DNA of 40,469 nucleotides from assembly GCA_016124515.1 (NCBI GenBank), contig WGNN01000125.1, forward strand, positions 1-40,469, written 5' to 3'. A model generated the notes under the pieces. The model saw only the letters and a program-made list of their open reading frames with translations, ran no database searches and was not told where the DNA came from. The translations under genes and the position numbers were made by a program. The DNA is from a bacterium (lineage in GTDB: Bacteria > Bacteroidota > Bacteroidia > CAILMK01 > JACPUW01). Shown here piece after piece: positions 150 through 11,841 of the stretch; the stretch's first letter is position 1; each line of letters starts with the position of its first letter.

Positions 150-212
150 CTGAAAATTAGTGAGGCTGCAACCAAGATCTGCCGCCTTGCATCTAAGCCC
201 ACATCAAGCAAT

Positions 213-803
213 ATGTTTTTCAAAAAAGCCAATATAAGACCATCAGATGCCAACGAGGCTGAGTTGATTGAAGGCTGTCTGAAAGAAGACAGAAGGTTTC
301 AAAAAGAACTCTACGACCGCTATGCATCAAAATTGATGGCCGTTTGCTATCGCTATTGTAAAAACCGCGAAGAAGCACAGGATGTATTGCACGAAGGATT
401 TATTAAAGCAGTGAAAAACCTGCACCGTTTTGAAGGCAAAGGCTCTTTTGAAGGTTGGCTCAGACGTATAATGGTTAATACAGCGCTTGAAAATTTCAGG
501 AAAAACAAGCACCTTGTGGTGGTTGAAGATATTGAGCATGCAGAAAGCCAGCGTGTAGAGTCAAAAGCACTTGACAAAATGTCGGCTGAAGAATTGCTGA
601 GACTGGTAAATGCATTGCCTGCCGGTTTCAGGGTGGTTTTTAACCTGTATGCTATTGAAGGTTACAGCCACAAGGAAATTGCCGAACAATTGCAGATTTC
701 AATTGGTACAAGCAAGTCGCAGCTTTCGCGTGCACGTGCTGCACTGCAAAATATGATTAAAGGAATAGACATAGAAGTATATAACGAGTATGCCCAGCGT
801 TGA
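213..803 (+). CDS. ECF-type RNA polymerase sigma factor
   Basis: This 196-residue protein has the standard ECF build. Sigma region 2 covers about residues 30-98, with RYCKNREEAQDVLHEGF and the GWLRRIMVNTA helix. Region 4 covers about 124-181, with LPAGFRVVFNLYAIEGYSHKEIA and an ISIGTSKSQLSRAR recognition helix. Such proteins direct RNA polymerase to a small regulon and are usually held by a membrane anti-sigma factor. The ATG at 213 is the natural start; the stop at 803 lies inside the next gene, whose ATG is at 790, so translation of the two is probably coupled. The partner has one inner-membrane helix and a C-terminal barrel, which fits an envelope-sensing switch. The family call is firm; the signal and regulon are unknown. 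Confidence 0.95.
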   Translation: MFFKKANIRPSDANEAELIEGCLKEDRRFQKELYDRYASKLMAVCYRYCKNREEAQDVLHEGFIKAVKNLHRFEGKGSFEGWLRRIMVNTALENFRKNKHLVVVEDIEHAESQRVESKALDKMSAEELLRLVNALPAGFRVVFNLYAIEGYSHKEIAEQLQISIGTSKSQLSRARAALQNMIKGIDIEVYNEYAQR

Positions 804-2100
804 TGAAATATTCAAATCAGGACTAAGCAACCTGCAAATAGACCCCGATAACTCGGTGTGGAGCAAGGTTGATAAAAGCCTTGGAAGCAAGGAGGGAAAA
901 GTAGTGCTGCCCTGGTACTACAACCCCCGAAAGGCGCTCATTGGGGCATTGCTCATTTCTGCTATGTCGTTTTCAATTGGCTACATATACGGTTTATTCA
1001 ATACCGATGCCTCTCAGGAAATAGCTGCCCAAACCACTCACGAGTTGCACATCTATCCGCAAGACCGCCCCGCTACTTACCATAGTAAGGCCGTGGCTTC
1101 AGCCCACACTGTGCTTTCTGATTTGGAAAAACCCGGCAACGAATCAAATGCCGAATCGGTGGCCCATGAGCGAGCAAACAGCCAACAAAACAGTGGAGCC
1201 AAGCACTTGAGTATGTTGGCGCTGCTGCCTGAAAATGAACGAAATGATGAAAGCACCAAAGCGATAGAAGCTTTTGACGAACGCGGCCCTTTCCAATTTC
1301 TCGCGTTTAGTCCCACGGTTTTAACAGCTACCGAACTGCCCGAAGATTTGGATGAAAACAGCCTGACTTTGGCCAAGCTCAATGCAGATAATTTGCCAAC
1401 TGCCGATATAAAACACGATATGCAAATGGCCGGCTATGGCCGCAATTGGTTGCAGTTCAACCGAGAATTCAACCCAACAATCGTGGGCTATTCAGGTGGT
1501 TTCACACACAATCCAACCACCACGGTTTACCTGGGCTCAGGCAACAGACAATCATCGGTAAGTTACAATTTCAGGTTTGGGCACATGCTCAGCCGCAACC
1601 TGGGTTTGGTTACCGGCCTTAGCATGGCCGACTATTCTACCCAAATTGATGGCAAACGCATCTCATTTGATATGGATTCGTTGCCCAGCAATGTGGGACC
1701 ATCTGACCGATATTCACTTTTTGCCTACCAATTGCAATACAACGCCCGTATGCTCTCAGTGCCGCTTATGTTGCGCATTGCAGGCAAAGGCAACCGCCTT
1801 GGGTATCATATCGATTTGGGCGCTTACCTGAGTCAGGTTATCAGCCAAACGCACAGCTTTGCCATGAATACAAAAGTTGATGGCACTGGCTTGTCAAACA
1901 CTTGGTTGCCCAATATGTACAACAGCCAACTGCAATCAGGGCTCATGGCCAATGCAGGTATTGATGCCTACTTGGCCCACGGTTTTGGATTTTCGTTTGA
2001 AGCCGTTTTGCGCCGAAGATTTCAGCAACAGTTGTTGGCCAACCTCAACGAAAACTCACTCAATTTTGGAGGAAGGGTAGGGGTTTTCTACCGATTCTAA
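790..2100 (+). CDS. Putative dual-membrane-spanning anti-sigma factor (cytoplasmic N-terminus, TM helix, linker, outer-membrane beta-barrel)
   Basis: The protein has 436 residues. Residues 1-46 are hydrophilic with no signal-peptide cleavage site. Residues 47-70 form one hydrophobic helix preceded by basic PRKAL, so the N-terminus should face the cytoplasm. Residues about 71-215 are polar and low in predicted order (rich in E, N, S, D). From about 230 to the end alternating aromatic strands recur (VSYNFRFGHM, YQLQYNARM, IDLGAYLS, FSFEAVLRR), and the chain ends GVFYRF, the terminal aromatic typical of outer-membrane barrels. Known biology: Bacteroides thetaiotaomicron Dma anti-sigma factors have this layout and sit beside a sigma gene. 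Here the gene overlaps an ECF sigma gene by 14 bases. The anti-sigma role is inferred from layout and context. Alternative: an ordinary porin-family protein with an uncleaved anchor. Confidence 0.7.
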   Translation: MPSVDEIFKSGLSNLQIDPDNSVWSKVDKSLGSKEGKVVLPWYYNPRKALIGALLISAMSFSIGYIYGLFNTDASQEIAAQTTHELHIYPQDRPATYHSKAVASAHTVLSDLEKPGNESNAESVAHERANSQQNSGAKHLSMLALLPENERNDESTKAIEAFDERGPFQFLAFSPTVLTATELPEDLDENSLTLAKLNADNLPTADIKHDMQMAGYGRNWLQFNREFNPTIVGYSGGFTHNPTTTVYLGSGNRQSSVSYNFRFGHMLSRNLGLVTGLSMADYSTQIDGKRISFDMDSLPSNVGPSDRYSLFAYQLQYNARMLSVPLMLRIAGKGNRLGYHIDLGAYLSQVISQTHSFAMNTKVDGTGLSNTWLPNMYNSQLQSGLMANAGIDAYLAHGFGFSFEAVLRRRFQQQLLANLNENSLNFGGRVGVFYRF

Positions 2101-7440: not shown

Positions 7441-10400
7441 CTATTTGCTCAAAACGGTTATGGTGCCGTTGCGCTGTTGGTCATTGGCATACAGCAAATA
7501 GTAATACACGCCGCTGTTGAGTTGGGCCCCTTTGTAAATAGCGTCCCATGTTAGCTCAGTACCTTCTGTTTCAAATACTTTTTCGCCCCAGCGGTTAAAA
7601 ATTATCAACTTCATATCAAGGCAGCCATTGTCGCCCGTGTTTACAGTGAGGATGTCGTTTTTGCCATCGCCATTTGGGGTTATAATGTTGGCCATCCACA
7701 CATCTTGCAGCGAAACCGCGCTGTAGCTCAGTGCCATAGAAGCGCTGTCAATACAAGGTGTTGTTTCGTTTATTACCAACAATACATGGTGTTCATTGTT
7801 GGCCGATGGCAATTGCAATTGAGGTGAGGTCTCTGTACTTATGGCATTGCCATTTAAATACCATTGGTTGCTAAAAGCCTGCATTGATAAGTTTTTCATT
7901 TGCACAAGGCCGCTGCATGAATCTATTTGGGCATCAATAAGGGCTTTTGGCTCATAGCGAACCACAAAAAACAGCGAACTCGTATCGCTGCAACCGGCGG
8001 TGTCGGTGAGCCGCTGGGTAATCCTGTATTTGCCGGTTTTGGCAAAGTAGTGAGTCAATGAATCGCCCGTGCCTATGGTTTTGTCTTTCAGTAGCCATTC
8101 TATGCTGTGCTGCTCGGTATTTGTGCTTGATATAAAGGTTCGCAAGGCATTGCAGTAGAGCGTATCCATGGTAAAACCTGATTTTGGCGGTTCGCTGATA
8201 ATAAACTGACTGCTAAAGGTATCGGCACAATCCGCATTCAATTTGTCTATTATGAGTACCACTTGTTTGTTGCCCGCCGAATTGTAAAACAGGGTATCCG
8301 ATTTTATTTGAATGGAGTTGCTGTCGGGGCCGTAGTTCCACCACAGGGTTTTGGCGTTTAGCGAGTTTTCAATAATGCGCACCGCCGTGGTACATGCTAT
8401 TGGCTGCACATCAAAATGGGCAAATTTTACCTGTCTTATATGCACCGTGTCAAGCACCGTATCGGCGCAGGCCGAGAATGGATTGACCACCAGCCGCAGT
8501 TGGTACACACCGGTATCGCCCATGAGAAAAACCGGATTTTTTTCTTTGCTGCGTTTGTCGCCTACAGTCCATTGAAATTTATTGCCATAAGAACTTTGGT
8601 TGTTGAGCGAAATTTTTGACAAACAGGAATCCACAGTTTCTCGAAATGCAGCAATAGGCACCTCATTGAAATTGAAATAGCGGCTGGCTGTATCGGGGCA
8701 AGAAGAAAAGGGATCTGCTACAAGGCTGAGTTTGTAATTGCCCGGTTGCTGCGCATTAAGCACTATGTTATCGCCGTACAAAGTGTCGGTAAAAATCCAT
8801 TTGATGCGGTTTGAATAGGTTGAACTGCTTTTGGCAAAGGCCTTGAATTCGCAACTGTCAAACTGTAGATCAAAGCCGGCTTTTCGTGGAAAATTGACCA
8901 CGTGGATGGTTTTTACCACCGAGTCGTAGCAGCCTTTGCCTTTGTTGATACGCAAGATGACTTGGTAAAAACCCGTATCGGGAAAGTAATGGCCGGGATC
9001 GTCGTTGCTGCTGTATTTGTTGGCTGCAAACTGCCACTGCCAAGTGAGCGCTTTTTGCGAATTATCAAAGAAGTTTACGTAGGGTTCGCAACTGTCCACC
9101 AGGTAGGTAAAATCGGCAAGTGCGGAGTCAATAACCAGTGGTTTGCTCAGGCTGTTGGCACAGGCCGTTCCCGAGTCGGTTTGCAACACCACAGTGTAGC
9201 TATCGGCTATGGCATATTTATGTGTGGGGGTTTTGAATGGGTCAAACCAGCCATCTCCAAAATTCCAACGGTAGGTTTGCGCCTTGCTGCTTTTGGCTTT
9301 GAAATCATACACCAGACCGCAGTCGTTTCCGTAGTAGTCAAAATCTACTTCTGATGTCTTGTACACAAATATTTCCTTTTGCACCGTATCGCTGCCCGGG
9401 CATGAGTTTGCATTGGCCAATATCAGTTTTATTCGGTACCAGCCGGTGTCGCTCAAGGCAAAACTTGGCGTGTCATTTGTACTGGCAAGTTTATCGTTCA
9501 CATACCACCAATATTCCAGCGCATTCACGCTTCGGTCTTCCGGTATCAGGGGCTGGTCGAAGCATATAGCCGATGGCGCTTCAAAGTCGGCATAGAGTAC
9601 CGGCGCATCAAAATCGAGCTTAAACAATGCATTGTTGCACAAATTGCCTGTTTTAGCACCATTGGTTTCACTCACCACACCTTTGGTTACAGGAAAATCG
9701 TCGTAGCCGCCGCCACAGCCGGTGCACACCGATTGATATACCACACCGGCGCGGTTGTATCGACTTGTGCCGCCATCTACATGTTCTTCGCTTTGGCCGC
9801 CGCCAAAATAGCTGCCGTATTTTATAGAGTCCATGTTTTCGGCAAATACCGCCAGATAAAAATCTGATTTATCCAAGGTGGTTTCCTGTATAGCCAGTTT
9901 TGGGTGCGGAATCGGGAGGTCGCTGCAATGGCCTTCAAAATTGGCTCTGCCGCCCCAACCCGAAAAATAGATGCGCCCGCATTGGTCAACCAAAAAAGCG
10001 CTGGGCGACAAATCAGGAGCTTTGCGGCCAGAACCAAACACACTTGAAAACTCCAGACTGTCAAGCTCGTTGTTGAAGCAGGCAATGAATTGTTTGCCAT
10101 TTGCCTGACTGTACAATACATCTTTCACAAAAAAGCTGTCGCTTTTGGTTTGGCCGGTCACATATACGCGGTTGTTTTTGTCAATCTGCACAAAGTATAT
10201 CTGCTCTTTCCGCTCTGTACCAAAGTAGGTTCCGGCCTTCAGGCTGTCGAGCGCCAAGGTAAATTTGGCAATGAAACCATCAACTTTACCACCGGTAAAT
10301 CTTGCTTGAAAAGCGCTTGTATCAAATGGCAAAGAGTCGCTTTGGGTGCCGCCGCAAATAAACACATGGCCTTTGTGGTCAAATTCCAAGGCATACGAAG

Positions 10401-11841
10401 CATCGTTTTCCGACCCACCCAAATAAGTGGATGCCAGTAGTTTGCCCAAATCGCTGCTCAGTTTGGCTACTACGGCGTCGTGTTTGCCGCGTCGGTTTTT
10501 TTGAAAGCTGTTGCCAAACACGGGAAAATCATCGGAGCGGGTTACAGTTGATACCCAAATATTGTCTTCCCTATCTACCAACACTTCGCCGCGGTACAAA
10601 TCGCCGTAGTTGAAGCCCAAATCGCTGGTATTGTCAAACCGTGCGCCGTTGAAATATTGCAGGCCATTGAGCCCGTCTTTTGACGAACCGCCAAGAAATG
10701 TACTTGACAGCAATCGCCTTCCATCGGTTGAGAATTGCGCTATATAAATATCGTAGGTGCCATTGAAACTGGTGTCGTAGGCGCTTACCGTGGTTGGAAA
10801 ATCTGCCGAACCGGTATTGCCAAAAACGATGAGTTCGTTGTGGCTGTTGACCACCATGCTGTGCGGATCTTCGTTGTGGGTACCACCTAAATAAGTGGCA
10901 AAAAGCAGTTTGGTGCCATCGTCGGAGTATTTCAAAATTCCCACATCGCGGCCAATATCGCCTATATTTCTATCTACCATTTTGCCGCCTTTCCATGTGC
11001 GCTGAAAGGCACCGAAAGTGGTGGGAAAACCAAAGCTGTAAACTGTGCCGCCCGAGTAGGCATCACCCAGCAAATCATAGGTGGCGGTAAAGCCAAAGTT
11101 GTCGGCAGTAGAGCCTGAATAGGTGGCAAATACCAAGGTTGGGTCTATTACCAGCGTGCGTTCTTTGCGGTAGTTGCCGTTAATGGCAAAATTCAGCACA
11201 TTGCCATTGAGTTCGTAAGCCGATTTTATTTCCTTTTTGCTCCCGTCTTTCTGGTTTTGGTAGGTGTAGGGCACTTCTTCAACAAGGTTGCGCAGGCTTG
11301 TATTTATTTGTATGGCGCCATCTTGCATCAGCACATCATCGGCACCCAGGTATTTAATGGCTATTTGCTCAGGATTGGCACCGGCGTGTACATAAAAGTT
11401 GTACTTGAGCTTGTATTGATAGCTGAAAATTTCGAAATCAATTCCCGGATAAACCTCTTTGAGCACAATGCGTTCAAAGGCTTTGACACCGCTTGCCCAG
11501 CGCGCCCGGTTATTGCCCAAAAAGTAGTTGTAGTAAGTAGGGTTTTCAACCGATGTTTCTATGCTTTCGGGCAGTTGGCTTCCTTCAAATTGCAGTTTTA
11601 AGGCGTGGCAATCGAGTATAGAATCTGTATTTCCGCCGTGGTGAAATGCTTCCACTTGCTCGCCATCGTAAAACAAAAATCTTATGCCATCATTCTCCAG
11701 GTAAACTTCGCCGGCGTCAATATAGGCTTTGAACAGTACTTTTTTGTGCCACTGCCCTTTGTTTTGAATAAACTGGTACTGTGCTGCACACCAATGGGTT
11801 AGCAGCAAAAAGGGCAATAGTATGGCTAAATGCTTGTTCAT
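7441..11841 (-). CDS. Giant secreted T9SS type-B cargo protein (DUF7948, SBBP beta-propeller, PKD-like repeats, gliding-type C-terminal domain)
   Basis: The protein has 1466 residues. A signal peptide covers 1-20, cut after CAA-Q. About 21-235 is the QNKGQW-type N-terminal domain (DUF7948). About 235-700 holds six propeller blades of the SBBP kind, each with YLGG or a variant (ATYLGGTHNE, STFLGGSSKD, ASTYLGGSEN and others). About 740-1375 holds eight PKD-like modules, each with one cysteine near the start (often DSC) and one near the end (often C-x-D-S/T). The last ~84 residues carry ITPNGDGKND and IFNRWGEKVFET, the gliding-motility-associated C-terminal domain that directs T9SS export and surface attachment. 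It is probably a surface adhesin or matrix protein. It is the last gene of a minus-strand pair; the ThiF-like gene lies 70 bases upstream. Confidence 0.92.
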   Translation of the reverse strand: MNKHLAILLPFLLLTHWCAAQYQFIQNKGQWHKKVLFKAYIDAGEVYLENDGIRFLFYDGEQVEAFHHGGNTDSILDCHALKLQFEGSQLPESIETSVENPTYYNYFLGNNRARWASGVKAFERIVLKEVYPGIDFEIFSYQYKLKYNFYVHAGANPEQIAIKYLGADDVLMQDGAIQINTSLRNLVEEVPYTYQNQKDGSKKEIKSAYELNGNVLNFAINGNYRKERTLVIDPTLVFATYSGSTADNFGFTATYDLLGDAYSGGTVYSFGFPTTFGAFQRTWKGGKMVDRNIGDIGRDVGILKYSDDGTKLLFATYLGGTHNEDPHSMVVNSHNELIVFGNTGSADFPTTVSAYDTSFNGTYDIYIAQFSTDGRRLLSSTFLGGSSKDGLNGLQYFNGARFDNTSDLGFNYGDLYRGEVLVDREDNIWVSTVTRSDDFPVFGNSFQKNRRGKHDAVVAKLSSDLGKLLASTYLGGSENDASYALEFDHKGHVFICGGTQSDSLPFDTSAFQARFTGGKVDGFIAKFTLALDSLKAGTYFGTERKEQIYFVQIDKNNRVYVTGQTKSDSFFVKDVLYSQANGKQFIACFNNELDSLEFSSVFGSGRKAPDLSPSAFLVDQCGRIYFSGWGGRANFEGHCSDLPIPHPKLAIQETTLDKSDFYLAVFAENMDSIKYGSYFGGGQSEEHVDGGTSRYNRAGVVYQSVCTGCGGGYDDFPVTKGVVSETNGAKTGNLCNNALFKLDFDAPVLYADFEAPSAICFDQPLIPEDRSVNALEYWWYVNDKLASTNDTPSFALSDTGWYRIKLILANANSCPGSDTVQKEIFVYKTSEVDFDYYGNDCGLVYDFKAKSSKAQTYRWNFGDGWFDPFKTPTHKYAIADSYTVVLQTDSGTACANSLSKPLVIDSALADFTYLVDSCEPYVNFFDNSQKALTWQWQFAANKYSSNDDPGHYFPDTGFYQVILRINKGKGCYDSVVKTIHVVNFPRKAGFDLQFDSCEFKAFAKSSSTYSNRIKWIFTDTLYGDNIVLNAQQPGNYKLSLVADPFSSCPDTASRYFNFNEVPIAAFRETVDSCLSKISLNNQSSYGNKFQWTVGDKRSKEKNPVFLMGDTGVYQLRLVVNPFSACADTVLDTVHIRQVKFAHFDVQPIACTTAVRIIENSLNAKTLWWNYGPDSNSIQIKSDTLFYNSAGNKQVVLIIDKLNADCADTFSSQFIISEPPKSGFTMDTLYCNALRTFISSTNTEQHSIEWLLKDKTIGTGDSLTHYFAKTGKYRITQRLTDTAGCSDTSSLFFVVRYEPKALIDAQIDSCSGLVQMKNLSMQAFSNQWYLNGNAISTETSPQLQLPSANNEHHVLLVINETTPCIDSASMALSYSAVSLQDVWMANIITPNGDGKNDILTVNTGDNGCLDMKLIIFNRWGEKVFETEGTELTWDAIYKGAQLNSGVYYYLLYANDQQRNGTITVLSK

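Follow-up and report, generated by a model that had tools for sequence, protein, structure and literature searches.

The window, i.e. the whole 40,469-nt stretch of DNA that was analysed, begins with two overlapping genes on the forward strand, one for an ECF sigma factor and one for an anti-sigma-type protein predicted to span both membranes. The features assigned to this pair were as follows.

168–194, forward strand: presumed own promoter of the operon, comprising GCAACC (168–173), a 16-nt spacer and CATCT (190–194); kept in the same-genus orthologue, with related dyads upstream of homologous sigma genes
213–803, forward strand: ECF sigma factor gene, 196 aa, with Sigma70_r2 and Sigma70_r4_2 domains (Pfam, E=2.8e-19 and 2.2e-16)
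790–803, forward strand: 14-bp gene overlap (ORF coordinates; identical overlap in the same-genus genome G001)
790–2100, forward strand: gene for the putative dual-membrane-spanning anti-sigma-type protein, 436 aa (AlphaFold2 architecture; homology to NigD-linked Bacteroides proteins)
790–924, forward strand: presumed cytoplasmic sigma-binding module, residues 1–45, with helices at 4–13 and 21–31 and conserved P19 and W24 (AlphaFold2; matches the N-terminal module of the Bacteroides set by profile, E=1.8e-13)
925–1002, forward strand: predicted single inner-membrane helix, residues 46–71 (AlphaFold2, sequence and charge pattern)
1003–1437, forward strand: predicted disordered periplasmic linker, residues 72–216, 145 residues (pLDDT<50)
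1444–2097, forward strand: predicted C-terminal eight-strand OmpA-like barrel, residues 219–436 (AlphaFold2, Foldseek and profile match; homologues match OMP_b-brl_2)

The first-pass annotation had described an overlap of 14 bases between the two genes, which was borne out by the open reading frames (213–803 and 790–2100). The pair is also present in G001, a genome of the same genus, with exactly the same overlap, and translation of the sigma and anti-sigma genes is likely to be coupled through it. The sigma factors of the two genomes are 74% identical, and the second protein is 28–30% identical to those of the same genus, G001 included. In a genome of the same family (G002), the order of the anti-sigma gene, an ABC transporter and three further genes is kept. 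Neither Rfam families nor tRNAs were found when the window was scanned for them, and a scan of the window with consensus promoters and terminators gave matches near the level of shuffled sequence.

The window sigma factor shares 41% identity with its Bacteroides fragilis counterpart, and the two were placed in one supported clade (support 98). The Bacteroidaceae sigma factors formed a subclade of their own (support 100) with the window sigma outside it; finer placement in this tree is unsure because of the quick tree search and the long outgroup branches. Assignment as a FecI-type PUL sigma was considered and rejected, the window sigma scoring below the TIGR02985 cut-off.

For the second protein, the annotation had proposed a polar N-terminus followed by a single membrane helix, then a linker of about 145 residues and finally a barrel ending in phenylalanine, and this layout was reproduced by AlphaFold2. 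The model was built from a shallow alignment of 19 rows and had a mean pLDDT of 59.6, despite which pLDDT rose into the 90s in the barrel core. Eight long strands were predicted between residues 219 and 435, with F436 as the last residue of the protein. The proposal of a barrel in the C-terminal half held for its predicted strands, which are OmpA-like, and was corrected for its start, which lies near residue 219 rather than 230. A structure search of the PDB returned the OmpA membrane domain (1bxw) as top match (Foldseek, E=1.8e-6, probability 1.0), and a sequence search of the PDB with alignment profile A3 returned no match. Pfam and NCBIfam scans of the second protein itself, barrel families included, were likewise without a match, and the putative barrel is assigned from the homologues and the structural model. 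Among barrel-type homologues 12/19 matched OMP_b-brl_2 (Pfam), a fraction that is no rate since the homologues had been chosen by their C-termini. No relatives were recovered when genome contigs were searched with the second protein alone, because the protein diverges too fast.

About 30 homologous barrel-type proteins share this layout, with a membrane helix close to the N-terminus and a helix-to-barrel distance of 146–399 residues; given this recurrence, the layout is not a product of chance. In these homologues net charge averaged +2.6 before the helix versus −0.4 after it, which is consistent with a cytoplasmic N-terminus. A mirror-tree comparison of distance matrices gave a weak correspondence between the sigma and the N-terminal module that was no better than that between the sigma and the C-terminus. 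A weak signal-peptidase-like site (TDA/SQ) follows the membrane helix, and this site, together with a barrel and terminal phenylalanine typical of outer-membrane proteins, would suit an ordinary outer-membrane protein that loses its helix as a cleaved signal peptide and is merely co-transcribed with the sigma rather than spanning both membranes. We regard this as highly improbable, as a signal peptide requires neither the 45-residue N-terminal module nor its conservation, whereas the module is kept across the class with its conserved P and W, has a homologue in the Bacteroides anti-sigma proteins and is also found in proteins that have no barrel at all. The preferred reading is of an anti-sigma-type protein with an uncleaved helix.

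The Dma proteins of Bacteroides thetaiotaomicron consist of a sigma-binding N-terminus joined by one helix and a tether to a barrel (PMC13088901), and a Phocaeicola vulgatus pair later named EcfO-Reo has a similar layout (PMC9308784, PMC13114119); experimental tests within this family have been published (PMC9308784, PMC13088901, PMC13114119). To obtain reference sequences, NigD was used as a landmark. NigD_N was present in 12 of 396 Bacteroidia genomes, and sigma/barrel pairs lay near NigD in several of the 12. The resulting reference set comprised six proteins, one of which (L137) is from a NigD-bearing genome but lies outside any NigD neighbourhood. Profile comparison with the six-member Bacteroides set gave a probability of 99.8 (E=5.2e-29) for the barrel and of 98 (E=1.8e-13) for the N-terminal module; the barrel match was weaker when the profile was made from the three closest relatives only (probability 78, E=1.9e-5). 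A scan with the reference set recovered 80 loci, mostly from Bacteroides with some from Phocaeicola and Mediterranea, and these had an adjacent sigma gene in 78 cases and NigD nearby in 70. Relatives within the class include genomes of Bacteroides pyogenes and B. ihuae.

The search for Dma homologues was positive for all three parts, the N-terminal module, the barrel and the sigma each being homologous to those of the NigD-linked Bacteroides/Phocaeicola pairs, which places the window pair as a divergent Dma-type member. These homologous parts, in combination with the published domain order (PMC13088901, PMC9308784), support the earlier suggestion that the pair is of Dma type and from a different Bacteroidota lineage. 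As judged from sequence comparison, the window pair is real and divergent and adds a new representative to the Dma kind.

The annotation had also noted that the Dma anti-sigma factors of B. thetaiotaomicron control vesiculation, and for the window pair such a link found no support. The published effect of Dma1 on vesiculation requires NigD1 (PMC13088901), and at E<=1e-8 there was no NigD_N match in the window's own genome (G000, 82% complete) or among the order members listed. Since the scan gave no NigD in a genome 82% complete and the sigma is outside the Bacteroidaceae clade, vesicle control is unsupported. That the pair is functionally Dma1/Das1, regulating outer-membrane vesicle production through NigD, is quite improbable on these same two grounds (clade support 100), even with an identical architecture and homologous parts. 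Overall, the original interpretation is partly supported, by homology as to a Dma-type pair in a different lineage but not as to the vesiculation link.

The presumed promoter was exposed by comparing the upstream regions of two same-genus orthologues. The pattern GCAACC-N14..17-C[AG]TC occurred upstream of homologous sigma genes at 26/62 loci versus 0.05 in dinucleotide shuffles, a contrast that is partly fitted because the pattern was drawn up from these same sequences, and a count that includes a few identical or closely related loci. In a separate count, the spacing of the dyad clustered sharply among homologous loci. A parallel dyad, TGCAGT-N15-GCATTT, lies upstream of the Bacteroides/Phocaeicola-type sigma genes; the joint pattern was found at 40/78 of these loci, 39 of them at spacing 15, versus a shuffle mean of 0.08, although the figure overstates independence since the motif was found on the counted sequences and many of the loci are closely related. 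The presence of both dyads upstream of sigma genes fits autoregulation, and the window sigma probably recognises its own promoter at 168–194. The conserved presumed own promoter before the sigma gene is new here.

A promoter scan of three genomes for the regulon gave 5 matches in the window's own genome versus 4 for a reversed control, a count not above chance. Copies of the dyad in this genome include one on contig C152 (27993–28019, reverse strand), 97 nt before a gene for an exported protein, and one on contig C130 (7281–7307, reverse strand), 21 nt before another such gene. Contig C152 also carries a CHU_C frame of 2066 residues that runs in the direction of the dyad copy. A second conserved upstream block, ATATTTTTAC, lies before the presumed promoter at approximately 139–150 in the window and is found in both same-genus orthologues.

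To describe the outer ends of such proteins, 62 survey loci were selected for having a sigma similar to that of the window. In 53/62, the same-strand gene after the sigma carried the N-terminal module (own profile, training members included). Classified with our own profiles, the outer ends comprised 31 barrels, 19 CHU_C domains (type IX secretion signals), 7 short tails, 3 cut and 2 unassigned; training members are part of these counts, which run slightly high for the CHU_C class. An independent Pfam check found CHU_C in 17 of 20 proteins picked by their C-terminal ends. The N-terminal modules of the CHU_C kind and the barrel kind matched one another by profile (E=6.4e-10), and at least 11 changes of outer-end class were counted on the sigma tree (point estimate). 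Two proteins with CHU_C matches, one of them a paralogue of the window protein, are encoded in the window's own genome as follows.

L058:1118–2443 on contig C108, reverse strand: paralogous anti-sigma-type protein, 441 aa, beside a related sigma (CHU_C, E=1e-13)
Window 7441–11841, reverse strand: 1466-aa protein with a CHU_C match at 7471–7695

In total there were 43 CHU_C matches in this genome. The AlphaFold2 model of the C108 paralogue has two N-terminal helices, a further helix at residues 62–82, a low-confidence stretch and well-predicted beta domains, and a PKD_4 match in this protein was below its cut-off. The frame that follows it overlaps by 4 bp and is by position part of an open frame of 2405 residues with CHU_C. 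Contig C129 carries another barrel-type pair (L057), found in G001 as well (L060), in which the N-terminal part is longer and the membrane helix lies at 139–157. At three further loci (L097, L099 and L101), short-type anti-sigma genes are followed by proteins whose N-termini are, as identified by eye, like those of the type IX secretion proteins PorP/SprF, and one member of alignment A7 matches PorP_SprF.

From these sequence profiles, the outer-membrane ends on the sigma-binding module appear to be exchangeable across the Bacteroidia among barrels, CHU_C domains and short tails. A search of open-licence papers found no description of outer-end exchange or of a CHU_C-type anti-sigma. It is conceivable, and we suggest it only tentatively, that the sigma-binding module and membrane helix form a general Bacteroidota platform with exchangeable ends, in which the CHU_C kind is a second type that might enter the type IX export path and release its sigma depending on export activity.

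An alternative is that the window pair itself regulates envelope or surface assembly in general, in connection with type IX secretion, and does not sense outer-membrane stress. Within the same sigma clade, type IX signal domains occur in paralogous and homologous pairs, some pairs have genes for PorP/SprF-like or PKD-type exported proteins after them, and on C152 a candidate promoter copy precedes an exported-protein gene on the contig with the 2066-residue CHU_C frame. The window pair, however, ends in a barrel instead of a type IX domain, it is not followed by any type IX gene, and promoter copies in its genome are no commoner than those of the reversed control (5 versus 4). We consider such a role unlikely for this pair.

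The whole is best explained, and with high probability, as an autoregulated sigma/anti-sigma operon of the Dma/Reo kind whose anti-sigma protein spans both membranes. The gene structure, the predicted fold, the homology to Bacteroides and the conserved presumed promoter were observed here; for the sigma binding, topology, outer-membrane insertion, signal, release step and regulon of the pair we infer the following. The two genes would form one operon and be translated in a coupled way. Residues 1–45 would keep the sigma bound at the inner membrane, where a single uncleaved helix would anchor the second protein, with the flexible linker of about 145 residues crossing the periplasm and the OmpA-like eight-strand barrel inserted into the outer membrane. 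Should that membrane be disturbed, or the barrel fail to assemble, the sigma may be released by cleavage or conformational change, and the freed sigma would raise expression of its own operon and of further envelope or surface genes. By analogy with the mechanism proposed for the family, it is plausible that the state of the outer membrane is passed directly to transcription here.

This extends the dual-membrane-spanning anti-sigma design from gut Bacteroides to an uncultured lineage with a set of type IX cargo and in which no NigD was found. The occurrence of the pair in such a lineage, with its 43 CHU_C matches, is an argument for seeing vesicle control as one local application of a broader coupling between surface and transcription. 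The conserved promoter dyad offers a direct handle on the regulon. The exchange of outer ends, type IX signal domains included, is a more surprising point than the new Dma-type pair. With barrels and type IX domains replacing one another on a single sigma-binding module, it becomes testable whether such proteins report on surface assembly or on export.

Among known systems, RseA-type anti-sigma factors share with the window protein a cytoplasmic sigma-binding part, one helix and a periplasmic part. Classical RseA-type anti-sigma factors are not known to reach or enter the outer membrane. The predicted barrel has the eight-strand fold of the OmpA membrane domain (PDB 1bxw; Foldseek) at approximately 12% identity but, unlike that domain, would serve as the outer anchor of an anti-sigma-type protein. 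The EcfO-Reo systems of B. fragilis and P. vulgatus, for which a response to outer-membrane stress has been proposed, have the same anti-sigma layout as the window pair, with a sigma at the 41% identity given above for B. fragilis (PMC9308784, PMC13114119); no counterpart of the EcfO NigD regulon was found in the window's genome. In Dma1/Das1 and Dma2/Das2 of B. thetaiotaomicron (PMC13088901), as in the window, an ECF sigma gene adjoins that of a protein in which a sigma-binding domain at the N-terminus is followed by one membrane helix, then a long disordered tether and finally a C-terminal barrel. The window pair differs from these in its lineage, in a sigma outside the Bacteroidaceae clade and in a genome in which no NigD was found. 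Its genes overlap by 14 bp, whereas most of the Bacteroides loci examined have a small gap, and its presumed promoter is TGCAACC-N15-GCATCT-like in place of the TGCAGT-N15-GCATTT of Bacteroides.
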